Assembly (NCBI GenBank): GCA_900555605.1
Contig: USLW01000037.1
Location: 1 to 11,155 of the forward strand
Origin: an uncultured Clostridium sp.
GTDB taxonomy: Bacteria > Bacillota > Clostridia > UBA1212 > UBA1255
DNA: 11,155 bases
Direction of reading: 5' to 3'
The notes under the pieces were generated by a model. The model was not told the origin of the DNA and ran no database searches. It saw nothing but the letters and a program-made list of their open reading frames with translations. This document shows, piece by piece, positions 1 to 11,155 of the stretch. Position 1 is the first letter of the stretch, and every line of letters starts with the position of its first letter. The position numbers and the translations under genes are program-made.

Positions 1-485
1 CTGTCAAATTTCTCTGAAAAGCCGATATATCCATACCTATGCGTTTCCGGAAACGCATAACCCGGCACCTCTATCGATAAGTATTCCGCGGAGGTGGAAA
101 ATCCGAATGCTGTTTCTGCCTCTTCGATCCAAAGGCCGCCGATTCCTTCTGTAACAATAGAATTCGGCCCCGTCAAAAAATAGATGTTCTTTTGTTTATG
201 ATCCGAATACTGAATCACCTGCACAAAGATTTCATTCTCCCCGGTCCGGAGATACGCGGTGACATCCAGTTCATCCATATACCGGACGCCTCGGGGCGCA
301 CGGCAGGGTCCGGTCATAACGCGGCTGCCGTTGATCAGCAGCAGATAACGGCTGTCCGCGCAGATCCGCAGGCGGCATACAGGCATCTTTTCCGCCTGCT
401 CCGCAATCAGCACCTTCTTTTTAAAATACACCATCCGCGGATATACCGCCAGTTCGTTGTCCACCCAAACCCATTCCGCACTCAT
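1..485 (-). CDS. GH78-like alpha-L-rhamnosidase, N-terminal part (cut by window edge)
   Basis: Only the first 161 residues are in the window. The start is the ATG at 483-485, which overlaps the stop of the preceding enzyme gene in an ATGA junction, with GAGG 11 bases upstream. There is no signal peptide, so the protein should be cytoplasmic. The visible part looks like the N-terminal beta-sandwich domain of bacterial GH78 rhamnosidases: an opening WVWVDNE, then ADSRYLLLINGSRVMTGPCR at about residues 43-62 (the typical D-x-R-Y-x-L-x-x-N-G, G-P-x-R pattern), LDVTAYLRTGEN at 73-84, and YIGFSEKFD at 153-161, which resembles the end of this domain. GH78 enzymes release terminal alpha-L-rhamnose; the catalytic barrel would lie outside the window. 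A related family sharing this ancillary domain is possible. Coupling to the anchored enzyme gene suggests that the two products act on the same glycan, outside and inside the cell. Confidence 0.72.
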   Translation of the reverse strand, partial: MSAEWVWVDNELAVYPRMVYFKKKVLIAEQAEKMPVCRLRICADSRYLLLINGSRVMTGPCRAPRGVRYMDELDVTAYLRTGENEIFVQVIQYSDHKQKNIYFLTGPNSIVTEGIGGLWIEEAETAFGFSTSAEYLSIEVPGYAFPETHRYGYIGFSEKFD

Positions 486-2551
486 ACACGTCTTTTCCTC
501 GCTCTGTATTGATATATGATGATGACCGCAGCAGCAGCGGCAATTACCCCGCCGGATACAGCCAATAAGGCGATCTCCATACCAGACATCTCAGGCTTTC
601 CGGTCCGATCCTTTTCGGGTGTCTGAAAATAGTCTTCGATCCGCGATCTGACCGCAGAATAAGAATAGGTGAGGCGGCCCAAGGGTACGGCGCAGCCGGA
701 AACGTAATAATCCATAATATCCGCTTCCTGTTCCACACTGTCAGCTGCTTTGAAGTCAATCCAGAAATCCTCCGCAGTAATTCCCACGGCTTCAAAGGGC
801 ACCGCAATCTGCATGACATTGCCCTGTACGGAATAAGGTACATGCTGCACGCTCTCGAATACATACGCGCCATCTTCACTGACCCGCTCCAGCGACGTCA
901 GCGTATCGGAAACAGGTGCACGGTTCAGCACATAATGAAATCCCTCCCATGCCGCAGATGCCGTTTTTTGATTATCCCTTCCGCGCACGGAAAGAAAGAG
1001 GTTCATCCAATTCGACGCCTGGTCCTTCCGGGGACGGATGTCCGCTTCTGTCTGAAGGTAAAAATAAAGATATGCATCGTCGTGGGTTACGCGGATCTCC
1101 GTAATAAAGTTCTCCGCGGCAGCCTGCGTATAGCGGAGCGCAGGGCTGGCGCCGATATAATCCCTGGCCGTATTTTTCACCGCAATATTATAAAATACAT
1201 TCGCATTGCTGTCGGTAAACGCCCATTGCTCCGCACTGCCACTGACATCGATGCTTTTGCTTTCAGGAAGTGTGTAATTCACATCCTGCAGGACCTTTCC
1301 CTTGTATTTTCGGATACCATCCACCATCTGCAGATAGTAATTGTCTCCGTAGCCCTGACGCGTATAATCCTCCGGATCCGCGGACGCGTAATCCCGGTCC
1401 TTTGTCATTTCAATATCCCGGGACCATTCGGTATTAAACGTATCGATCCAGCCGTAGCCCTCTGCACTCTTCTGGGCAATCCATTCATTCCAGCCCGTGA
1501 TAAAGATCATCTGCGGGTCCGCTGCAATGGCATATTCCCATTGCTCCTGAAAATTTCTTCCCTCCAGAATATGCTGAACAATCCCGTTTTCCGGGGTCTC
1601 GGCAGAATATCCCCGTCCATAATACCCCTCCTTTGCGCTCTTCGGAACCGTTGCGCCGTAGCTGCACGGACCGGAAAATTGACAGACGGAAACATTGATT
1701 AAATTCGTATACAGATCCTGCGGTTTCGAAAGATTCATATAGGGAAAGCCCATTTCCTGCTTCTCCTCTAAAGGCCACTGCGGCGGCCGGATATAGAAGA
1801 AGTCCTGCAGCGCCGCGGCCACCTCCTCCGCCTTGGCAATAATCAGCGGTTTATCGTACGGGCCGTAGAACCAGAGCTCCGAATAAAGATTTTTTCTGTA
1901 CAGCGTCGTATACAAATGCTGTACGGCCGCGCCGCTGGCCGTATTGGTGTAAAACACAATTTGCGGCACTTTCCAGCCCGCCAGCCGATATTCCTCCAGT
2001 GCGGCCAAAATTTCAGGCCACACTTTGTTGTAATAGATGCCGTTGGTAACGTCAAATACAAGGAAATCAATATCGGCGGCGATAAACAGTTCGATATGCT
2101 TTCTGATAACATACGGGTCCGCGCTGTTATAATAGCCGTACAGCGGTTCGTTGAAAAAGTATGTCACGACATTGGGATATACCTCCGAATTTGTGTCGAG
2201 GAGTTCCCGGAGCGGCGCTTTCCGCAGAATATCGGTAATATCATATACTGTTTCCTGATTCTGCTGGCCGAGCCATAAAAAGTAGAACAAGCCCACATAT
2301 TTTTCCTCTTGGTAACCGGAGATAGGCGTCAAGCTCCGCCCTAACGCATCGGTTCCGGTAATTGCCGCCGTACTTTTTCTATTTTGGCTTACGGCGGAGC
2401 TGTTTTCGGCAGCAGGAATTGATTGCGCGGCAATGCTTCTGCTTTGTGCGGATAATAGGCAGCCGATCAGTACCGTCAAAAGAATCGATAAGAAAAGACA
2501 CAGCCTTTTTGTACGGTTCTGCCCAAACGCACCGATTTTGTCAGATTTCAT
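482..2551 (-). CDS. Exported, membrane-anchored GH99/WbsX-like protein with CBM9-like domain (subtype A, A1)
   Basis: 689 residues. The ATG at 2549-2551 is chosen because AGGAGG lies 9 bases upstream (2561-2566) and a signal sequence follows at once; the frame is open further upstream, but only inside the preceding gene. Layout: basic n-region and hydrophobic helix (about 12-36); a TIM-barrel-type region (about 83-417) with YVGLFYF (85-91), YFFNEPLYGYYN (131-142), IDFLVFDVTNG (161-171), RPPQWP (255-260) and TGWNEW (352-357); a CBM9/DOMON-like beta-domain (about 433-630) ending DIMDYYVSG...PLGRL; a membrane helix (about 658-680) and tail RARKRRV. Glu356 in WNEW and Asp167 are plausible catalytic acids by analogy with GH71/GH99/WbsX-like folds. 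Likely a surface glycan hydrolase, substrate unknown. WbsX relatives are often annotated as glycosyltransferases, but export plus a binding domain favours hydrolysis. LIGC at 28-31 could be a lipobox, though Leu-Leu after the Cys argues against it. Confidence 0.85.
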   Translation of the reverse strand: MKSDKIGAFGQNRTKRLCLFLSILLTVLIGCLLSAQSRSIAAQSIPAAENSSAVSQNRKSTAAITGTDALGRSLTPISGYQEEKYVGLFYFLWLGQQNQETVYDITDILRKAPLRELLDTNSEVYPNVVTYFFNEPLYGYYNSADPYVIRKHIELFIAADIDFLVFDVTNGIYYNKVWPEILAALEEYRLAGWKVPQIVFYTNTASGAAVQHLYTTLYRKNLYSELWFYGPYDKPLIIAKAEEVAAALQDFFYIRPPQWPLEEKQEMGFPYMNLSKPQDLYTNLINVSVCQFSGPCSYGATVPKSAKEGYYGRGYSAETPENGIVQHILEGRNFQEQWEYAIAADPQMIFITGWNEWIAQKSAEGYGWIDTFNTEWSRDIEMTKDRDYASADPEDYTRQGYGDNYYLQMVDGIRKYKGKVLQDVNYTLPESKSIDVSGSAEQWAFTDSNANVFYNIAVKNTARDYIGASPALRYTQAAAENFITEIRVTHDDAYLYFYLQTEADIRPRKDQASNWMNLFLSVRGRDNQKTASAAWEGFHYVLNRAPVSDTLTSLERVSEDGAYVFESVQHVPYSVQGNVMQIAVPFEAVGITAEDFWIDFKAADSVEQEADIMDYYVSGCAVPLGRLTYSYSAVRSRIEDYFQTPEKDRTGKPEMSGMEIALLAVSGGVIAAAAAVIIIYQYRARKRRV

Positions 2552-4316
2552 CACAGTCAGCCTCCTCTCGGTATTTTCCCGCAAACACATACGACAGCCT
2601 TCCCGGCGGTACCGCGTCTCCGGACACATAATAATCCAAAATATCATCCTCCCGTATAATGCTGTCGGAAACCTTAAAGTGCAGAACAAACGGTTCCTTC
2701 CCGATTCCGAGTACAGATTTCTCGATTTTCATCTGCAGCACATTGCCCGCTGCGCTGTATTCGGCTCTGCCGACAGAAACAAACGAAAATACGCCGTCGG
2801 AGGCAGGCCGCTCTACCAAGGAAATACCGGGCCCGGCAAACCGCCGGTTTACGGTAAAATGATACGTCTCCCAGGCCGGTCCATCGCAGCCTTCTATATG
2901 AATCCAAAGATTCATCCAATTGGTCTGTCCGGGCCGCGGGCCTGAAAGCGGACGGTCCGTGCGCATGTAAAAAAAGAGCGCCTGCGCATCCTGTGCAATT
3001 CGGATCTCCCGAATAAAGTTTTCCGGCGCCGGAAGCGTATAGCGCAGCAGCGGACTGGCGCCGATATAATCCCTGGCGGGTTTTGCCACAGCGATATTTT
3101 CGTATCTATCCGATACGGTCTCCCATTGCTCCGGCGCCCCGTAAATATCGATGGTCTGAAAACAGCGGCCGCCATCTTCAGCCTGCTCCGGGGCTGCCGC
3201 TCCGGAGGTCCGTCCCAGCCGGAACCGCCGGATTCCGCCGGCCATCTGCAAATAATAACAATCTCCGTATCCCTGCATGGAATAATCATTGACATTCGCC
3301 GAGGCATAGCAGGGCGCCTTTGTCATTTCAATGTCCCGCGACCATTCCGTATCAAACGTATCGATCCAACCGTAGCCTTCCGCGCTCTTTTGCGCAATCC
3401 ACTCATTCCAGCCTGTAATAAACACAATATCCGGATCAGCAGCAAGGGCGTTTTCCCATTGCTCCTGAAAATTTCTGCCTTCCTCAATATTTCGTACATT
3501 TCCCGACTCCGGCGTATGCAGCGAATATCCTCTCCCGTAGAATTGATCTGCTGCTGTCAGCTGTTTCGTCTTTCCAAAGCTGCAGGGACCCGCAAATTGG
3601 CTAACGGACACGTTCATCAGATCCGTATATAGGTCCTGGGGCTTTGCGATGTTCATATAGGGAAATCCGTCCTCCTGTTTTTCCTCCAGAGGCCACTGCG
3701 GCGGCCGAATATGAAAGAAATCCGCCAGCTCCGACGGAAGCCCGTTTTTATCCGCAATGATCAGCGGCTTGTCATAGGGGCCCCGGAACCAAAGCTCCGG
3801 ATACAGATTTCTCCCGTATATCGCATCATAAAAATGACGGACAGTCTGCTGAGAATGCGAATTTGTAAAAAATACGAATTGCGGCGCTTTCCATCCCGCT
3901 GTCCGGTATTCCTCCAGAAGCGCCAGCAGCAGCGGCCAGACCTGATCGTAATAGATTCCATTTGTAACATCAAACGCTAAAAAGTCAATATCCGCCGCGA
4001 TCAAAAGCTCAACGTGCTTTCTCAGCACCCAAGGATCCGCCATATTATAATATCCGAACAGCGGCTCGTTAAAAAAATACGTATCCACATTGGGATACGC
4101 TTCCGACGCCGTATCCAGCAGCGCCTCCTGCGTATCCCGCCGTAAAATATCCGTAATATCATATACGCTCTTCTGATTCTGCTGCCCGAGCCATAAAAAA
4201 TAGAACAGACCCACAAAGCCTTGTTTTTCAGGCCTGTTGGGGCCACAGACCGGAAGTCTGCGGCCGAAACGATCTGCACCCGTAAGCCTGCATAACATAT
4301 TCTGATGTTTATTCAT
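2541..4316 (-). CDS. GH99/WbsX-like protein without export signal, CBM9-like domain (subtype A, A2)
   Basis: 591 residues. The start at 4314-4316 is the earliest possible: an in-frame TGA directly precedes the ATG. GGTGAT, complementary to the 16S 3' end, lies 5 bases upstream. The protein is a close paralogue of the next gene's product, sharing WPLEEKQ-x-GFPYMN (about 208-222), SQFAGPCSFG (239-248) and TGWNEWIAQKSAEGYGWIDT (301-320). Glu305 and Asp116 are the candidate catalytic acids; RPPQWP is at 204-209 and the CBM9-like domain at about 387-580. It lacks both the signal peptide and the C-terminal membrane helix, ending in an acidic, soluble tail. It has eight cysteines against three in the mature anchored paralogue, which fits a cytosolic location. 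It overlaps the next gene by 11 bases and follows the lectin gene by 59. Likely acts on imported oligosaccharides related to those cut by the anchored form. Activity is inferred. Confidence 0.85.
   Translation of the reverse strand: MNKHQNMLCRLTGADRFGRRLPVCGPNRPEKQGFVGLFYFLWLGQQNQKSVYDITDILRRDTQEALLDTASEAYPNVDTYFFNEPLFGYYNMADPWVLRKHVELLIAADIDFLAFDVTNGIYYDQVWPLLLALLEEYRTAGWKAPQFVFFTNSHSQQTVRHFYDAIYGRNLYPELWFRGPYDKPLIIADKNGLPSELADFFHIRPPQWPLEEKQEDGFPYMNIAKPQDLYTDLMNVSVSQFAGPCSFGKTKQLTAADQFYGRGYSLHTPESGNVRNIEEGRNFQEQWENALAADPDIVFITGWNEWIAQKSAEGYGWIDTFDTEWSRDIEMTKAPCYASANVNDYSMQGYGDCYYLQMAGGIRRFRLGRTSGAAAPEQAEDGGRCFQTIDIYGAPEQWETVSDRYENIAVAKPARDYIGASPLLRYTLPAPENFIREIRIAQDAQALFFYMRTDRPLSGPRPGQTNWMNLWIHIEGCDGPAWETYHFTVNRRFAGPGISLVERPASDGVFSFVSVGRAEYSAAGNVLQMKIEKSVLGIGKEPFVLHFKVSDSIIREDDILDYYVSGDAVPPGRLSYVFAGKYREEADCDEI
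2561..2566 (-). promoter_or_regulatory. Ribosome binding site deciding the start of A1
   Basis: AGGAGG on the minus strand, 9 bases before the ATG at 2549-2551. It lies inside the end of the upstream paralogue's coding sequence, so translation of A1 can be re-initiated by ribosomes finishing A2. It argues against the longer open frame that extends to 2689. Confidence 0.8.
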
Positions 4317-4332
4317 TCAAAATCACCGTGCC

Positions 4333-4354
4333 AGCCTCTGCCTCCGCAAAGGCT
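4333..4354 (-). other. Intercistronic hairpin between the lectin and A2 genes
   Basis: On the minus-strand RNA, AGCCUUUGC and GCAGAGGCU form a 9-base-pair stem with one G-U pair and the four-base loop GGAG. On the other strand the same position is a C-A mismatch, so the fold suits the operon transcript. No U-run follows, so it is not a standard intrinsic terminator. It lies 17 bases before the A2 start and could set mRNA processing or stability, lowering or separating downstream expression relative to the lectin gene. Confidence 0.45.
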
Positions 4355-4375
4355 TCCTTTCATGGGGAAGACATC

Positions 4376-6097
4376 TTATTGCGCGGAAATCCGCCGCCGT
4401 TTCCGAAGAATGAATCCATACAGTACGCCTGCCGTCGTCAGGCCGAAGGCCATCGCAAACAGCGCCGTGCAGTCACCTGTAACCGGAATTTCAACCGTGC
4501 CGTAAACGGCAATATCAGACACCTCATATGCACAGCCGGAAGAAAGGAACCCGAGATTCTGATCATGGCCTGCGGTAAAGCATTCCAAGGCTTCCGGAAT
4601 TTCTACGGTAAGCGCGAGTTTTCCGTCGAGCCACAGTGTGACCTTCAATCCCTCTTTTTCCACTTTAAAATCAAATTCCGTTCCCTTTGATAATCTAAGC
4701 CCGATACCGTCCATCAGATCCTTCATATTATCGTCCTTGAACTCTACCCGGACATCCCAATCCTTTGTAATCACCAGCTGGCAGTTCTTTCCGCTTTCCG
4801 GATCTGCGCCGATAATAAGCCGGATGCCGTGATAAGGCTCGGTACCGATATCTGTAATCTTCACATGTCCTTCATATATGTAATGATCCGTAAGGCCCGG
4901 AATCGTAAGCATGGAACGATTGATATCCGATACAGAGGCGCTTGTGATGCTGCCGCCTGTATAAAGGTTCTCCCGAGTTTCACCGGGATCCGTTTCCTTC
5001 GGCGGATCTATCGGGTCGGTCTCTGCCGGAGGCGTGATATCATTCCGGTATACCGCAAGATTGCTGGCTTCAAAATGGCAGTCAGAGGACTGGAAGCCAA
5101 GATTGGAGGCGCTGCCCTCCGTAAATGCATCCAATGCTTCCGGAACCAGAATGGAAACTACAAATTCTCCATTCATCAGATAAGTCAGCCGCTGCCCCTC
5201 CCGGATGATTTCAAAATCAAACTCATAGCCGGCTGTCAGCGGGGTGGTATTAAATTGCATGCTCATGCTATCTCCCTTAAAATCAAACGCGGTTCCTGCC
5301 GCCATGGCTACGATATTTGTCATCATTTCCTCTGAATCATAGCCGTTGATAAATCGCACGCCGTTCCATCCGTTTCCTGCCATGGATATAATTTTGATAT
5401 GACCTTTAAACGTATAGTTTTTTGTCAGCTCCGGAATATTCAGCATCGTAACATTGGTCGTTTCGCTTCCATTTGTTACAGTACCGCCCGTATAAAGATT
5501 CGGACCTGGTTTCGCCTCTGCTGCCTCCGCGCATTGTACCGAAATTTCCGAAACCTCAAATCTGCAGCCGGAGCTGGTAAAGCCTAAATTCCGGTTGTTT
5601 CCCTGCACAAACGCATCATATTCGCCGTCATCCGGGATTTCGAGCTCCAGAATCAATGCCTCATCCATATAAAAGGTTACCTTCTGTCCGGCTCTGATAA
5701 TTTTAAAAGAAAAGATCAGGCCATCGCTCAGTGCCGGAGACTGCTCGATAATTTCCGTTCCATTGATGTTATTTTTGCCTTTGAACTCAATCCGCGTCCC
5801 GATCTCTTTTGTTACTACGAGCTCACTGCTGCTGCTTCCGTCAGAGCCGATTACAAATCGGATTCCGTTATAGCCCTTTGGCCCGATCTCCACAATTTTC
5901 ACCTTGCCCTGAAAGGTAAAATTCTTCGTCAGTCCCGGAACCGAGATCAACTGGGTATGTGAGTCTGCAATTTCATTCTGTGTGACCGTGCCGCCGGTAT
6001 AGAGATTCTCCTCTGCCGCGGACACTGCCGCGATGCCGGTGAGCAGGCAGAGCGCCAGTAGCAGGGCGCCGGTCTTTTTCATAAGCTTTTGAAGCAT
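4376..6097 (-). CDS. Secreted three-repeat lectin-like surface protein with sortase-type signal
   Basis: 573 residues. The ATG at 6095-6097 is chosen because AGGAGG (6106-6111) lies 8 bases upstream and a good signal peptide follows (MKK, hydrophobic stretch, cleavage near VSAA at 25-28). The open frame continues to 6271, but that part runs through the promoter region. Three repeats follow at about residues 31-188, 200-350 and 377-532. Each begins NLYTGG, has a GHVKI-like strand and an NG(I/V)R block, and ends NLGF-x-SS-x-C-x-(F/Y)E. A linker rich in Pro, Thr, Asp and Glu (351-376) separates repeats 2 and 3. The end has IPVTGD (537-542), a hydrophobic helix and RKRRR, the layout of an LPXTG-class wall-sorting signal with Ile for Leu. 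The repeats look like concanavalin A/LamG-type beta-sandwiches with no visible catalytic motif, so glycan binding is the likely role. First gene of its operon and divergent from the AraC-type regulator. Confidence 0.78.
   Translation of the reverse strand: MLQKLMKKTGALLLALCLLTGIAAVSAAEENLYTGGTVTQNEIADSHTQLISVPGLTKNFTFQGKVKIVEIGPKGYNGIRFVIGSDGSSSSELVVTKEIGTRIEFKGKNNINGTEIIEQSPALSDGLIFSFKIIRAGQKVTFYMDEALILELEIPDDGEYDAFVQGNNRNLGFTSSGCRFEVSEISVQCAEAAEAKPGPNLYTGGTVTNGSETTNVTMLNIPELTKNYTFKGHIKIISMAGNGWNGVRFINGYDSEEMMTNIVAMAAGTAFDFKGDSMSMQFNTTPLTAGYEFDFEIIREGQRLTYLMNGEFVVSILVPEALDAFTEGSASNLGFQSSDCHFEASNLAVYRNDITPPAETDPIDPPKETDPGETRENLYTGGSITSASVSDINRSMLTIPGLTDHYIYEGHVKITDIGTEPYHGIRLIIGADPESGKNCQLVITKDWDVRVEFKDDNMKDLMDGIGLRLSKGTEFDFKVEKEGLKVTLWLDGKLALTVEIPEALECFTAGHDQNLGFLSSGCAYEVSDIAVYGTVEIPVTGDCTALFAMAFGLTTAGVLYGFILRKRRRISAQ
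4379..4489 (-). other. Sortase-type cell-wall sorting signal
   Basis: Residues 537-573: IPVTGD, about 20 hydrophobic residues, then RKRRRISAQ. This is the three-part layout of LPXTG-class signals, with Ile at the first position; cleavage would fall between Thr540 and Gly541. The anchored enzymes of the window have a membrane helix but no such motif. If the variant motif is not recognised by a sortase, the segment would simply be a membrane anchor. Confidence 0.65.
4502..4969 (-). repeat. Lectin-like repeat 3
   Basis: Residues 377-532, after the acidic Pro/Thr linker. Contains NLYTGGSIT, GHVKI, HGIRLIIG, VEFKDD, IPEALECFTAG and NLGFLSSGCAYEVS. It is the repeat closest to the wall anchor. Confidence 0.8.
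5048..5500 (-). repeat. Lectin-like repeat 2
   Basis: Residues 200-350. Contains NLYTGGTVT, GHIKI, NGVRFING, FDFKGD, VPEALDAFTEG and NLGFQSSDCHFEAS. It is the most divergent in the middle, with a Met-rich stretch (MMTNIVAMAAG) where the other two have a VVTK/VITK strand, suggesting altered ligand contacts. Confidence 0.8.
5534..6007 (-). repeat. Lectin-like repeat 1
   Basis: Residues 31-188 of the surface protein. Contains NLYTGGTVT, GKVKI, NGIRFVIG, IEFKGK and NLGFTSSGCRFEVS. The repeats align with each other at the protein level but have clearly diverged at the DNA level, so the triplication is old. Confidence 0.8.
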
Positions 6098-6105
6098 TCT
6101 GAATT

Positions 6106-6111
6106 CCTCCT
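6106..6111 (-). promoter_or_regulatory. Ribosome binding site deciding the start of the lectin-like gene
   Basis: AGGAGG on the minus strand, 8 bases before the ATG at 6095-6097. It rejects the upstream in-frame start at 6271, which lies beyond the predicted promoter. Confidence 0.85.
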
Positions 6112-6121
6112 GTCTGAAAAT

Positions 6122-6135
6122 GGTTTTTTGAAACC
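6122..6135 (-). other. Short inverted repeat in the lectin-gene leader
   Basis: GGTTT and AAACC separated by four bases, between the predicted transcription start of the lectin operon and its ribosome binding site. It could be a leader hairpin or an operator half-site pair. A 5-base stem of this kind can also occur by chance. Confidence 0.25.
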
Positions 6136-6147
6136 TGGTATATTTGT

Positions 6148-6176
6148 AGTATAACATTGCGGAGAGCGTGATATAA
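6148..6176 (-). promoter_or_regulatory. Predicted extended -10 promoter of the lectin-led operon
   Basis: On the minus strand, TGTTATACT gives an extended -10 (TGn before TATACT at 6148-6153). The hexamer 17 bases upstream, TTATAT at 6171-6176, matches the -35 consensus poorly (2 of 6). A good -10 with a weak -35 is what an activator-dependent promoter would show, in keeping with the divergent AraC-type gene. The predicted leader is about 40 bases. Confidence 0.5.
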
Positions 6177-6231
6177 TACATTCCGTCATCACAAATCAGA
6201 CATTTTTTGACCTCCGGCTTCAGATTCATTC

Positions 6232-6261
6232 TTGACACAGCTTTCAGGCTGCCTATATAAT
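6232..6261 (+). promoter_or_regulatory. Consensus sigma-A promoter of the AraC-type gene
   Basis: A perfect TTGACA (6232-6237) and a perfect TATAAT (6256-6261) separated by 18 bases, 51 bases upstream of the regulator's ATG. Transcription would start near 6268. This is the best promoter in the window and suggests steady basal expression of the regulator. Confidence 0.85.
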
Positions 6262-6271
6262 AAATCTGCAC

Positions 6272-6287
6272 ATCCGTAAAAGCGGAT
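6272..6287 (+). other. Inverted repeat just downstream of the regulator's predicted start site
   Basis: ATCCG, six bases, then CGGAT: a perfect 5-base inverted repeat only a few bases after the predicted transcription start. It could be a leader hairpin or a site for autoregulation by roadblock. No U-run typical of a terminator follows. Confidence 0.3.
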
Positions 6288-6312
6288 TAAAAACGATGGG
6301 TGGTTCTCGTAC

Positions 6313-7380
6313 ATGATTCAAAACCAGAAATTAGCAGCATTGTTTCAGGATCTGACAGATTCGGAGCTGATATTTCGGGAGCTGTATTTTGCAAAAAAGG
6401 ACCCGGATCAGTTGCGGCGGTATCTTGCCGCGCTGCCCCGGGAACGGCAGAATCTGGTGCGGGAATGGCTGCTGGCTGAAAAAGGTGTGATTTTGTCCGA
6501 GTTGACGGAAAATCTCGTAGAGTTTGATTTTGTGGACAATATCATTGTTACCCGTCACGCCCGCTATACGCCTGCTTTTGTCCATAAACATACATTTTTT
6601 GAGATCGTGTGCGTCCTGGAGGGAAGCTGTATCAACCGCATTGGAGATACACAGCTTTTTATGAACGACGGTGATCTGTGCATCATTCCTCCCGGTGTTT
6701 TTCACGCACTGCAGGAGACAAAAGATAGCCATATCTGCAACATTCTGATCAAGCACTATTCTTTAATGGAAACCTTCAGCAATTTTTTGCTGCAGAAAAA
6801 TGTCCTGGCAAGCTTTTTTATTCAGTCTCTATATATGAAGAACACTGGACATTATCTGTCCTTTCACACCGAGGGCGACGAAAAAATACAGTATCTGCTG
6901 GAAGCGCTGATTCTGGAAGGACTGCCTGACGCCGGAAAGAAGAAGGATGAGCAGCACAGTGCGCTGAAGGAAGCCTATCTGAATGCAATCTTCAATTATT
7001 TGGCACGCGGCCATGCCGAATCGGCCGATTATGACGGAATCGCTGTGACTGACTCCCGGCTGATTATCGAAATTCAAAAATATTTGACAAATAATCTCCA
7101 GACCGCCACGCTCCAAAGCCTGGCCGCGCATTTTAACTACTCCCCTTCTTATCTGAGCCGCCTGATTCAGCAGAGCACCGGAACAAACTTTTCAAAAATT
7201 CTGCGCAGAATCAAGATCAATAAGGCCTGCAGTCTGCTGTCCAACACGGATTTGAATGTAAACGAGATCGGAGAGCAGACCGGCTACCGCTGTCAGCGCC
7301 AATTCAATCGGGCGTTCCAGGACGTCATCCATATGACGCCCTCGGAATACCGAAAGCAGCAGCGTCTACTGCTGCTCTGA
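6313..7380 (+). CDS. AraC-family transcriptional regulator with N-terminal cupin domain
   Basis: 355 residues. The ATG at 6313 is the first ATG after an in-frame stop at 6277; only a weak GGGTGG lies upstream. Residues 1-70 form a charged, probably helical extension. A cupin-type sensing domain follows, with HKHTFFEIVCVLEG (91-104; His91, His93, Glu97) and GDLCIIPPGVFHAL (120-133). The C-terminal DNA-binding domain has two helix-turn-helix motifs: LQSLAAHFNYSPSYLSRLIQ (267-286) and NVNEIGEQTGYRCQRQFNRAF (315-335), the latter followed by MTPSEYR, the usual AraC signature. Such proteins usually activate sugar-catabolic operons when the cupin domain binds a ligand; the ligand here is unknown. 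It is divergent from the lectin-led operon, its likely target, and its last 15 bases overlap the end of the opposing B2 gene. Confidence 0.92.
   Translation: MIQNQKLAALFQDLTDSELIFRELYFAKKDPDQLRRYLAALPRERQNLVREWLLAEKGVILSELTENLVEFDFVDNIIVTRHARYTPAFVHKHTFFEIVCVLEGSCINRIGDTQLFMNDGDLCIIPPGVFHALQETKDSHICNILIKHYSLMETFSNFLLQKNVLASFFIQSLYMKNTGHYLSFHTEGDEKIQYLLEALILEGLPDAGKKKDEQHSALKEAYLNAIFNYLARGHAESADYDGIAVTDSRLIIEIQKYLTNNLQTATLQSLAAHFNYSPSYLSRLIQQSTGTNFSKILRRIKINKACSLLSNTDLNVNEIGEQTGYRCQRQFNRAFQDVIHMTPSEYRKQQRLLLL
7355..7376. other. Inverted repeat across the tail-to-tail gene overlap
   Basis: AGCAGCAG, six bases, then CTGCTGCT: a perfect 8-base inverted repeat that includes the stop of the opposing B2 gene in its loop and lies just before the regulator's stop. 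Both transcripts would fold it. No T-run of useful length follows on either strand, so it is at best a weak bidirectional terminator or an end-stabilising hairpin. The sequence also encodes the Gln- and Leu-rich protein ends. Confidence 0.4.
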
Positions 7381-9141
7381 AGACTGCCTCTCCGCATTCC
7401 CGTATTGATAGGACAGCCGCCCGAGGGGAACCGTATCCCCGGATACGTAGTAATCCATGATGTCTTCCGGATGGATCACGCTGTCCGCAACCTTAAATCG
7501 CAGCCGGAACGCATCTGCGTGCAGGCCGATTGCCGCAAACGGCACCGACAGCTGCATAACATTTGATTGACACGAATAGCGCAGCCATCCCGCGGAAACA
7601 AATCGGTACCCGCCCACAGAGCGCTCTAAAGAAGTCCTCCGGCTGTCGGCCGGACTGCGGTTGACGACATATTGAAACCCTTCCCAAGAATACGCGGCAG
7701 CATCCGCCTCACAGCCAGAGGACAGGCCGGAATCCACGCCGAGAAATAGGTTCATCCAGTTGCTCTGTCCGTCCTCATGAGCCGTAATATCCCGATCTGT
7801 CCGAATGTAAAAGTAAAGGTTCTCCCAGTCGTGGCAGACCCGCACCTCCCGGATAAAATTCTGGGGCGCCGGCTGTTTGTAATGAATTTTAGGGATATAA
7901 CCCATATGGTCTCTTTCGATCCGCTCCGTTGCAATATTGTAAAAAACGGTTTCTACCTTCTCCCATTGGGCCGGATCGCCGCAGACGTCGATGGTACGGC
8001 AGGAGGAACACGGAATTTCAGGCTGTACGCCTTTATATCTGCGGACATGCTTGATCAGCTGCAGATAATAGTTGTCATCATAGCCGCCCTTTGTCATTTC
8101 AATATCACGGGAATATTCGATGTTGAACGTATCCACCCATAACGGAAATCCCGGTTCTGCCTCGGAAAACAGCTTCAGCGCCGTCCATTCGTTCCAGCCT
8201 GTGACAAACACCATATCCGGGTCCACGGCCTCCGCGTGATTCCACTGCTCGATAAAATTGACGCATTTCGGGACATCGGCAGTACAGTTGCACCCGGTAA
8301 TACCGGAATATCCGCGGCCGCGGTTCTCCTTGCCGCACGCAAAATGCATACGTTTATAAGAAAAACTGAAAGCGCCGGCCGTATGCTGTGCAACGGATAC
8401 ATTCATAACATCCTGGTAAACGGTCTGCGGCCGGATCCAATCCATATACGGAAATGCCCTTTCATCCCGTTCTTCATTCGGCCACTGCGGCGGCCGGACA
8501 TGGTAAAATGCCGCCTGCTCTGCCGTAAGACTGTCCGGAGGCGCAATCATCAGCGGTTTTTCATAATTCCCGCGGAACCAAAGCTCCGGATACAGATTTT
8601 TGCTGTGAATATTGCGGAAAATATAATCTACCACATAATCGCTCCTGGTCTTTGTGAAAAATGTGACCTGCGGCACATGCCAGCCCGCCAGACGGTATTC
8701 CTCCAAAAGCGCCAGCAGCAGCGGCCAGACATTTTCATATACGATTCCGTTTGTATAATCCAGGGCGATAAAATCTATGCCGGCGGCAATAAAAAGTTCG
8801 ATATGCCTGCGAAGGATATACGGATCCGCCATATTATAGTAGCCAAACAGCGGTTCTGCAAAAAAATAGTTCATGTACAGCGGCGCTTCCGGCGGCCCGG
8901 GGGGATCCCACAGCGCCTTTGGATTTGTTTTCAGCAGCTGTTCAATGTCATAGACGTCCTCATGCCGTTCGCCCTGCTGGCCGACCCACGCAAAATAGAA
9001 CATTCCCACATACCTTTTTTTATGCGGACGCCTCGAAACCGCTGCCGCTTCCTGGGGCGTCAGGGTGATCTGCCGTTTGTATGCATCCTGCGCCCATGTG
9101 CCGAAGACCGTATTTTCTATTGCCTTTTGCTTTTTGTCCAT
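7366..9141 (-). CDS. GH99/WbsX-like protein without export signal, CBM9-like domain (subtype B, B2)
   Basis: 591 residues. The ATG at 9139-9141 is chosen because AGAGGG lies 8 bases upstream; the longer open frame to 9234 lies inside the upstream gene. Domains: TIM-barrel-type region (about 44-370) with YVGMFYFAW (44-52), FFAEPLFGYYN (93-103), IDFIALDYTNG (122-132), RPPQWP (216-221), AQHTAGAFSFS (251-261) and TGWNEW (314-319); then a CBM9/DOMON-like domain (about 383-580) ending in DIMDYYVSG...PLGRLSYQY. Asp128 and Glu318 are candidate catalytic residues. There is no signal peptide or membrane helix. Ten cysteines, including a CSSC pair at 378-381, support a cytosolic location. Asn in the (F/N)NEPL block of the other three is Ala here (FAEPL). 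It follows the anchored B1 gene by 14 bases and overlaps the convergent AraC-type gene at its end. Probably acts on imported glycan fragments. Confidence 0.85.
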   Translation of the reverse strand: MDKKQKAIENTVFGTWAQDAYKRQITLTPQEAAAVSRRPHKKRYVGMFYFAWVGQQGERHEDVYDIEQLLKTNPKALWDPPGPPEAPLYMNYFFAEPLFGYYNMADPYILRRHIELFIAAGIDFIALDYTNGIVYENVWPLLLALLEEYRLAGWHVPQVTFFTKTRSDYVVDYIFRNIHSKNLYPELWFRGNYEKPLMIAPPDSLTAEQAAFYHVRPPQWPNEERDERAFPYMDWIRPQTVYQDVMNVSVAQHTAGAFSFSYKRMHFACGKENRGRGYSGITGCNCTADVPKCVNFIEQWNHAEAVDPDMVFVTGWNEWTALKLFSEAEPGFPLWVDTFNIEYSRDIEMTKGGYDDNYYLQLIKHVRRYKGVQPEIPCSSCRTIDVCGDPAQWEKVETVFYNIATERIERDHMGYIPKIHYKQPAPQNFIREVRVCHDWENLYFYIRTDRDITAHEDGQSNWMNLFLGVDSGLSSGCEADAAAYSWEGFQYVVNRSPADSRRTSLERSVGGYRFVSAGWLRYSCQSNVMQLSVPFAAIGLHADAFRLRFKVADSVIHPEDIMDYYVSGDTVPLGRLSYQYGNAERQSSEQQ

Positions 9142-9149
9142 CTGCCGTT

Positions 9150-9155
9150 CCCTCT
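9150..9155 (-). promoter_or_regulatory. Ribosome binding site deciding the start of B2
   Basis: AGAGGG on the minus strand, directly after the TAG stop of B1 and 8 bases before the ATG at 9139-9141. It indicates co-translation with the upstream gene. Confidence 0.65.
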
Positions 9156-11155
9156 CTACCGCTTTTTGCCTTTGACAGCAATCAGAACCACACAGGCGGC
9201 CACAACCACAGCGCCCGCCGCAATGATGATCCACTCGCCGGCAGAAAGGCCGGAATGCTTCTGGTTCTCATTGTTCGGATCCTCCCCGTCAGGCGCCGCG
9301 GTTGCATCTGCTTCGAATTCCGCTGCGGTCTTGCCGACATACGTATATGCAAGACGCCCCATAGGGACGGCATCCCCGGACACATAGTAATCCATAATAT
9401 CTTCCGGATGTTCAATGCTGTCCGCTGCTTTAAAGCGGATTGAAAAGGCTTTGTCTTCAATTCCCACCGCACTGCGAGGAATACAGAGCTGCATAACGTT
9501 TCCCTGCACCGTACAGGAGACGCTGCAGACCTTTTCGAATTCATATTTTCCGTCTGCAGATATCTTTTCAAGAGATGTCAGGGTTTTTGATTCCGGATTT
9601 CGATTCACAATATACTGGAACGTCTCCCAGGACGGCACATCCGCGTCCGCGTTCTCAATCCCGATCAGCAGATTCATCCAGTTTTCAGCATCCGCCCTGC
9701 GCTCTGAGATCTCATTCTTCGTCTCAATCCGGAAATATAAATACTTGCTGTCATGCGTTACTTTGATATTAGTAATAAAATTTTCCGGCGCCGCCTGGGT
9801 GTAATGGTAATCCTCTGTTTTCACATACCCGTAGTGATCCCGGGCGATTTTATCCGCAGAAAGATTCAGATATGTGTTCGTCACCGCATCCCACTGCGCA
9901 TCTTCGCCGTTCAGGTTAATGGTTTTGGAGACAGGCTCCCGATAATTTTCAGAAGTCAGCGCAATGCCCTTGTATGCCCGGATATTGGAAATCAGCTGCA
10001 GATAATAGTTATCCCCGTAGCCCTCCTCTGCATACGTACCATCCGCATTGCGCACATAGGCAGGCGCCTTTGTCATTTCAATATCCCGGGAAAATTCCGT
10101 GTTGAAGGTATCAACCCACAGCGGCGTAGTGCCTGCCCAATCCGCGGCCAGCTTCAGCGCCGTCCATTCGTTCCAACTGGTGACAAAAATGATTTCCGGA
10201 TCCGCGGCAAGCGCAGTATCCCACTGCTCCTGGAAATTATCGCCGCGCATAATCGCTTCGGCATTGCCGTTAACCGGATTTTCCGAGGTATAGCCTCTCC
10301 CCCAGCTTTCCTTAATGCCGCCGCCCACGCCCTGTACGGAAAAGCTGAAGGCATCTCCCGTATGCTGTGCCACCGAAACACTCATAAGGTTGGTAAAAAG
10401 GCGCTGCGGCCGAACCTTTTCCACATATGGCCAGCCGGTGGGCTCATACTCTGCTTCCGGCCACTGCGGCGGTCGGATTGCAAAGAATTCCCGCATCTGC
10501 TCCGACAGTTCCTCTTCCCAAGCGATGATCATCGGCTTTTCTCCGCTCCCCCGAAACCACAGGCTGTCATATTTCTCCTTTCGATAGGCGCCTTTGTAAA
10601 GCTGCCCTACAACATCCCCTGATCTGGTATTAGTAAAAAACATCAGCTTGGGAACATTCCAGCCCGCCGTCTGATAAGCAAGATAAATGTCCAGCATGTT
10701 CGCCAGCACTTCGCCGTAATAAATTCCGTTTGTGAAATCAAGTGCGATAAAATCAACCCCGGCAGCAATAAACATTTCCAGATGCTTTCGGATAATATAC
10801 GGATCCTGGCTGTTGTAATAGCCGTACAGCGGTTCATTGAAAAAATAGTTATATCCCACAGGCGCTGCGGCATTATCCTCCGCAATACTGAAAAGCGCAT
10901 CCCGGTCCGTCCGCAGAAGCTTTGTGATATCGTACACTTCAGTCTGCGGCTCGCCCTGCTGTCCCATCCAGGTAAAATAAAACAAGCCTACATATCTATC
11001 TGTCCGATATCCGGCAACATCCGGCAGTTCCCTGCCCAATGCATCCGTAGCCGTAATATGGCTTAATGTATAATCAACGGCACTCAGGTCTGATTGTGCC
11101 TGAACCCGATATCCGGCCAGGATACCGGTCATCAAAGCAGCGGCTGCCAATACAG
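9156..11155 (-). CDS. Exported, membrane-anchored GH99/WbsX-like protein with CBM9-like domain (subtype B, B1; N-terminus cut)
   Basis: The frame is open to the window edge, which cuts into the signal peptide: VLAAAALMTGILAGYRVQAQ is visible but the basic n-region is missing, so the true start lies outside. Numbering from the TTG codon at 11148-11150 gives 664 residues: TDALGRELPDVAGY (35-48), YVGLFYFTW (53-61), YFFNEPLYGYYN (102-113), VDFIALDFTNG (132-142), RPPQWP (226-231), AQHTGDAFSFS (261-271) and TSWNEW (324-329), where the other three paralogues have Gly for Ser. Asp138 and Glu328 are candidate catalytic acids. The CBM9/DOMON-like domain is at about 408-605, followed by an acidic linker rich in Asn and Asp, a membrane helix (about 640-658) and tail KGKKR. 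It lacks an LPXTG motif. Likely a surface enzyme that pairs with the soluble B2 encoded 14 bases downstream. Substrate unknown. Confidence 0.85.
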   Translation of the reverse strand, partial: VLAAAALMTGILAGYRVQAQSDLSAVDYTLSHITATDALGRELPDVAGYRTDRYVGLFYFTWMGQQGEPQTEVYDITKLLRTDRDALFSIAEDNAAAPVGYNYFFNEPLYGYYNSQDPYIIRKHLEMFIAAGVDFIALDFTNGIYYGEVLANMLDIYLAYQTAGWNVPKLMFFTNTRSGDVVGQLYKGAYRKEKYDSLWFRGSGEKPMIIAWEEELSEQMREFFAIRPPQWPEAEYEPTGWPYVEKVRPQRLFTNLMSVSVAQHTGDAFSFSVQGVGGGIKESWGRGYTSENPVNGNAEAIMRGDNFQEQWDTALAADPEIIFVTSWNEWTALKLAADWAGTTPLWVDTFNTEFSRDIEMTKAPAYVRNADGTYAEEGYGDNYYLQLISNIRAYKGIALTSENYREPVSKTINLNGEDAQWDAVTNTYLNLSADKIARDHYGYVKTEDYHYTQAAPENFITNIKVTHDSKYLYFRIETKNEISERRADAENWMNLLIGIENADADVPSWETFQYIVNRNPESKTLTSLEKISADGKYEFEKVCSVSCTVQGNVMQLCIPRSAVGIEDKAFSIRFKAADSIEHPEDIMDYYVSGDAVPMGRLAYTYVGKTAAEFEADATAAPDGEDPNNENQKHSGLSAGEWIIIAAGAVVVAACVVLIAVKGKKR

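Follow-up and report, generated by a model that had tools for sequence, protein, structure and literature searches.

Four related proteins of GH99 type are encoded in the window, by which we mean the whole stretch of 11,155 nucleotides analysed here, and they form two neighbouring pairs, in each of which one member is anchored on the cell surface and the other is cytosolic. Together with the adjoining start of a GH78-type alpha-L-rhamnosidase gene, this arrangement may serve a Clostridia-type bacterium as a locus for glycan utilisation, where a rhamnose-containing glycan would be cut on the surface, taken up and cut further in the cytosol with the help of the rhamnosidase, a reading in which our confidence stays a little short of even. 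The family to which all four proteins belong is very large and does not carry the second acid of the GH99 catalytic dyad, a change that was absent from the original prediction on this DNA and that we regard as more unusual than the pairing which the prediction described.

Seven genes were read in the window from the listing of open reading frames, and on the minus strand they follow in the order of transcription B1, B2, a surface protein with repeats, A2, A1 and the start of the rhamnosidase gene, with an AraC-family gene lying on the plus strand between B2 and the repeat protein. B1 (9156..11155, minus strand) is a predicted surface-anchored enzyme of the GH99 fold with a C-terminal membrane segment, and its N terminus is cut at the window edge. 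B2 (7366..9141, minus strand) is a predicted cytosolic enzyme of the same fold, which belongs in our tree to a separate all-cytosolic clade; its ATG at 9141 stands behind AGAGGGA. The regulator (6313..7380, plus strand; Pfam HTH_18 E 9.4e-23, AraC_binding E 3.2e-7) has a cupin-like ligand domain, and a predicted sigma-70 promoter-like site, TTGACA-18-TATAAT, with 12 of 12 consensus matches, lies upstream of it at 6232..6261 of the plus strand. The repeat protein (4376..6097, minus strand), whose start codon at 6097 is found behind AGGAGG, has a signal peptide, three CBM66-like beta-sandwich repeats and a C-terminal tail of IPVTG followed by hydrophobic and basic parts. A2 (2541..4316, minus strand) is a cytosolic paralogue of A1 with neither signal peptide nor anchor, and A1 (482..2551, minus strand), with AGGAGG upstream of its ATG at 2551, is a predicted surface-anchored GH99-fold enzyme with a CBM9-like domain. 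The rhamnosidase gene (3..485, minus strand) runs off the window edge, so that only 161 N-terminal residues are seen, which have no signal peptide and match N-terminal domains weakly, without reaching the cut-off; the ATG of this gene and the A1 stop overlap at ATGA. The AraC and B2 genes are convergent and overlapping. Since A2 and A1 have 11 bases in common and 14 bases lie between the B1 stop and the B2 start, each cytosolic and anchored pair is probably read as one transcript.

The original prediction held that the four proteins are related and that in each pair one is anchored and the other has neither signal peptide nor anchor, and both statements agree with our analysis. All four minus-strand frames are matched by a single family model, with scores of 838 bits for A1, 781 for A2, 794 for B2 and 891 for B1, and the motifs quoted for them are found in the proteins. 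Topology was called from hydropathy and the context of the start sites, not from the output of a dedicated predictor. By these measures A1 begins with a basic and then hydrophobic stretch resembling a signal peptide and ends with a hydrophobic segment followed by RARKRRV; B1 ends, as A1 does, with a hydrophobic segment and a basic tail, and P0022, which differs from B1 in 3 of 665 residues and was used as its full-length stand-in, carries a signal peptide. The ATG of A2 comes directly after an in-frame TGA, and no extension to a signal peptide is possible there. B2 starts behind a ribosome-binding-like site and, followed upstream, its frame runs through the end of B1 out of frame, and its start likewise cannot be extended into a signal peptide.

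The model of A2 (AF2, pLDDT 90.3) has the GH99 barrel fold, from which the fold of A1 is deduced. Against the GH99 model PF16317 only B1 (36.4 bits) lies above the cut-off of 33, and A1 (26.3), A2 (29.7) and B2 (14.6) stay below it. The proteins had also been described as WbsX-like, after what we take to be the name of a Pfam model; this label has to be dropped, as GH99 was the only Pfam match of the four at E 0.1 or better. The C-terminal domain resembles CBM9, with a Foldseek match to the CBM9 structure 7nwn (E 7.5e-4, within a whole-protein search), and no Pfam CBM9 match was found in the four proteins. The dyad, on which GH99 and GH71 depend for their mechanisms, corresponds to residues 305-308 of A2 and reads mostly E-x-x-A, so that neither the E-x-x-E of GH99 nor the D-x-x-E of GH71 is present. 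According to an alignment made at the level of sequence (the motif, ungapped in a profile alignment to 4acy, places A2 position 308 opposite the second acid), none of 304 family proteins (300 distinct) has D or E there; the residue is A in 246, V in 27, T in 17, M in 9, and I, C, G, N and F in one each. The first acid is E in 302 of the 304 and Q in two, and D116, D319, D328 and E330 (A2 numbering) are invariant in the proteins examined.

The missing acid leaves catalysis by the family unproven, and the role of hydrolase is a predicted one. We tentatively propose, at a confidence clearly below even, that these proteins may constitute a novel type of glycoside hydrolase built on the scaffold of GH99 and GH71, in which one of the invariant residues D116, D319, D328 or E330 would replace the D/E-x-x-E dyad, and which, present in at least 40 copies in some Clostridia, would have switched repeatedly between surface and cytosol in a part of its tree, with the cytosolic partner beside the surface enzyme and its binding domain drifting afterwards. 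No description of such a family was found in the literature searched, mostly openly accessible journals. If active, the family would be a third way of using the GH99/GH71 scaffold and would open up a large and so far unassigned part of gut glycan metabolism.

The claim of two subtypes stands for A and fails for B. A1 and A2 are 57.3% identical over full length, and in a tree of 78 rows nine anchored A-type proteins form the sister group of A2 (100/100 for the clade of ten, 98/95 for the nine). B2 falls into a four-row, all-cytosolic clade (100/100) apart from the clade of B1, its closest relatives being P0041, P0036 and P0038 with 60-64% identity; it is 47.0% identical to B1 and 47.6% to A1. 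Forcing the B1 and B2 clades together was rejected (AU p 0.0006). It follows that the A pair does have an anchored and a cytosolic member of one subtype, as proposed, and that the B pair joins two distinct clades. The 133 rows had been reduced to 102 by dropping rows of more than 93% identity and all but 10 lipoproteins, and to 78 by dropping nine long or distant rows and 15 from dense clades, with B1 represented by P0022; a quick tree of the 102 rows agrees on A2, B1 and B2. A general split into anchored and soluble groups, which would contradict the pairing, is not what the 78-row tree gives, although B2 itself does group with soluble members: the supported branches force at least 11 changes of the anchored and at least 12 of the cytosolic label, gain and loss not being told apart, and these counts take P0021 and P0037 as labelled, where the cytosolic label is doubtful (linker-like N termini; P0025, the sister of P0021, is lipoprotein-like). 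So many switches between anchored and cytosolic forms would offer natural replicates of the changes that polysaccharide enzymes undergo on crossing the membrane.

The active-site motifs of B2 match those of B1 in spite of the separate clade. WNEWTALK occurs in 17 of 133 rows, namely in all four rows of the B2 clade and in 13 anchored ones, nine of which lie in the B1 clade and four of which are near-copies outside the tree; four further rows of the B1 clade do not have it. Sites specific for the B2 clade agree with B1 at 6 of 20 evaluable positions, where the other five anchored clades compared give 8 of 81 when pooled, and this post hoc, weak signal could reflect a common substrate. Separate trees of the two domains, made to see whether B2 combines a catalytic domain of B1 type with a foreign binding domain, keep its catalytic domain in the cytosolic clade and give its binding domain no supported position, so that they show no domain swap for B2. 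A1 and A2 are 69% identical in the catalytic domain and 43% in the CBM9-like domain (A2 residues approximately 370-591), and the binding domain of A2 lies outside the nine-row A clade in the binding-domain tree, which may be due to a swap or to rapid drift.

The change of the two domains was also compared over the tree. On the end branches of the tree, with fixed topology and P0021 and P0037 as labelled, the ratio of change in the binding to that in the catalytic domain has a median of 2.74 for cytosolic forms (24) and 1.83 for anchored ones (51; Mann-Whitney p 0.0023). Eleven contrasts were set up with groups and outgroups picked by hand, in which P0021 counted as extracellular for the B2 contrast and the P0072 contrast does not represent a resolved pair of sisters; in 10 of them the cytosolic side has the higher ratio, with L121 as the opposite case (Wilcoxon p 0.019, or 0.027 without the B2 contrast). 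The catalytic arms of these contrasts do not differ (p 0.24), and in 10 of 11 the cytosolic side has the longer binding-domain arm (p 0.0098). Taken post hoc, this fits cytosolic forms that would keep catalysis and lose the need to hold a polymer.

Members of the family were found in all 16 genomes of the family of G001 (E 1e-150), in 16 of 31 of the order (E 1e-180) and in 19 of 291 sampled in the class (E 1e-100), and at least 3,630 clustered proteins are related to the GH99-like barrel. Relatives, from 80 loci kept of 561, occur in Clostridia MAGs, Paenibacillus, Planctomycetes, Verrucomicrobia and Bacteroidota, and two are on viral contigs. Some contig-end fragments included, there are 9, 41, 43, 12, 22 and 1 matches in six genomes (E 1e-20) and 46 and 28 in two others (E 1e-40). 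The 41, 43 and 46 matches of G002, G003 and G074, in assemblies of 2.6-2.9 Mb, are by themselves an unusual expansion of a single family.

In genome G007 (L119) the AraC gene, an anchored B, an anchored A and the GH78 gene follow in the order of the window, and the G001 locus has the same genes and the repeat protein in addition. The AraC counterparts in place are 83% (L119) and 65% (G001 locus) identical. No counterparts of A2 or B2 were found in the G007 and G001 assemblies, which may be incomplete, and among 31 genomes of the order the best matches, 58% for A2 and 51% for B2, are all long proteins of anchored type. The comparison thus presents the window as a surface core of A and B to which one cytosolic gene is added beside each anchored gene, and these cytosolic copies are not essential to the locus. 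A twofold inside and outside doubling in one locus is also seen beyond the window, there with two kinds of enzyme, in L122 (genome G011, contig C77). A GH63/MGH1-like hydrolase and two smaller GH99-like proteins (15082-17378) come there after a cytosolic member, an AraC gene and an anchored member of the family; the shorter of the two, of 327 aa, has no signal peptide, the longer, of 431 aa, has a lipoprotein-like signal, and they share 58% identity. This small pair carries N-E-Y-A-E, that is an intact E-x-x-E; the hhalign comparison of our family with it spanned the N-terminal part only.

Rhamnosidase counterparts occupy the same place in L119 (797 aa, 75% identical over the part seen in the window) and in L001 (742 aa, 53%), both match PF17389 above cut-off, and that of L119 matches rhamnosidase B, PDB 2okx (E 3.6e-50). 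GH78 genes also lie near other family members in L068 and L067. By a hand count in the 16 genomes of the family of G001, a PF17389 match lies within 10 kb of at least 15 of 86 family places; as there are 3-19 such matches per genome, a rough estimate puts the expected share at approximately 10%, and the co-location is modestly above it, with 6 of the 15 or more places looking like one conserved set of the same layout. A rhamnose-containing glycan is thereby our leading guess for the substrate, drawn from gene neighbourhood. For the repeat protein the model of the first repeat (pLDDT 85.7) has CBM66 structures as its top Foldseek matches (best E 8.5e-7). Shorter, one-repeat relatives of this protein are encoded ahead of the anchored B gene in both L119 and L001. 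No transporter is encoded in the window; beside family members elsewhere, L067 has ABC solute-binding proteins and permeases, and L068 a solute-binding protein. As a separate observation, L068, L164, L165 and L166, from four genomes, share a conserved set in which a cytosolic member is accompanied by a PF17389 GH78 gene and a further gene (the solute-binding protein in L068), and approximately 5 kb on by a second family member, which has a signal peptide.

In the mechanism we favour, A1 and B1 on the surface, together with the lectin-like CBM66-type repeat protein, would cut the glycan, its fragments would be imported by a transporter encoded outside the window, A2 and B2 would complete the breakdown together with the cytosolic rhamnosidase, acting on products of A1 and B1, and the AraC regulator would control the locus. 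The division into an outside and an inside step, which had been proposed for two distinct linkages, is in keeping with the topologies, the tight layout, the mixed neighbouring pairs of close relatives and a binding domain that has changed relatively faster in cytosolic copies; it has to be modified in that B1 and B2 do not share the descent of a single subtype.

It is nevertheless quite conceivable, if in our estimate rather less probable than not, that the pairs have no functional meaning, and that in a heavily duplicated family, whose members switch signal peptide and anchor, paralogues with unrelated substrates simply come to lie side by side. The dozens of copies in single assemblies, the absence of a cytosolic copy from the syntenic L001 and L119 and the separate descent of B1 and B2 are what one would expect then. 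Mixed neighbours are repeated elsewhere: cytosolic and exported members adjoin in L002, L004, L005, L121, L122 and L123, and among more distant members in L068, L164, L165, L166, L185, L196 and L204, the exported neighbour in L004, L164, L165 and L166 being cut at its end, so that no anchor is seen there. Eight pairs among the 115 labelled close relatives agree in the exact length of their longest contig, taken as a sign of one contig, and seven of these pairs are anchored plus cytosolic (shuffle mean 1.96, p 0.0002, post hoc), which speaks against chance neighbours, as does the finding that cytosolic catalytic domains show no acceleration relative to their extracellular sisters. The family-wide counts, devised after the tree and the pairs were seen, show no significant excess of mixed neighbours: among 196 members, 18 of 35 pairs within 6 kb were mixed, 17 both extracellular and none both cytosolic (mean 13.4, P 0.066), and a recount of 193 members with duplicates removed gave 16 of 34 mixed, which is at chance level, and 18 both extracellular (mean 13.0, P 0.17), or 15 of 34 with one doubtful label changed (P 0.26). 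A general rule of mixed neighbours is thus not supported, and the recount moves weight from functional pairing to the view of unrelated paralogues, against which the lack of any cytosolic-cytosolic pair (0 of 34, P 0.09) may still be set.

An improbable alternative is that the family is not hydrolytic at all and serves glycan binding, sensing or other chemistry, the cytosolic copies being sensors or binders. The dyad is the argument for it, since no protein has the second acid, and in GH71 replacement of either acid of the DxxE dyad lowers activity 200-15,000-fold (PMC12394665). Conservation of the first acid and of the four invariant acidic residues argues for retained catalysis, and so do the GH78 and GH63/MGH1-like hydrolases in the neighbourhood. 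We regard as very improbable an export of A2 and B2 by a non-classical route to act outside the cell; their starts show no signal peptide, and the anchored relatives retain a classical one.

The original prediction stated that no system of this arrangement had been described, and here it has to be corrected, as the principle of two compartments is known from GH10 xylanases. Of the GH10 xylanases Xyn10A1 and Xyn10A2 of Paenibacillus sp. JDR-2, one is anchored at the surface and carries binding modules, and the other is intracellular (PMC4765114). In Caldicellulosiruptor kronotskyensis two enzymes with 41% similarity in their GH10 domain are predicted to lie in different compartments, Xyn10A with its two CBM22 modules outside the cell and Xyn10B inside it (PMC4761950). 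Common to both systems is a single enzyme family that is represented outside, where it carries binding modules, and a second time within the cell, and the window resembles them, with an exported, surface-held member, a member with no export signal and one family model for all. Compared to the GH99 endo-alpha-1,2-mannosidases and mannanases (BtGH99, BxGH99, human MANEA), our family lacks the second dyad acid throughout and adds the CBM9-like C-terminal domain, with the Pfam cut-off reached by only one of four proteins; from GH71 alpha-1,3-glucanases with their DxxE it differs by the mostly E-x-x-A motif, and its C-terminal domain, which matches 7nwn by structure, differs from CBM9 proper in having no Pfam CBM9 match. 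PDB 5ngw, named a glycoside hydrolase-like protein, is also among the closest known systems, and no description of its function was found in the literature searched. From the GH10 precedents the window is set apart by its other enzyme family and missing dyad acid, by having no transporter in the window, and by the adjacency of the cytosolic and anchored genes, which occurs twice in one locus.
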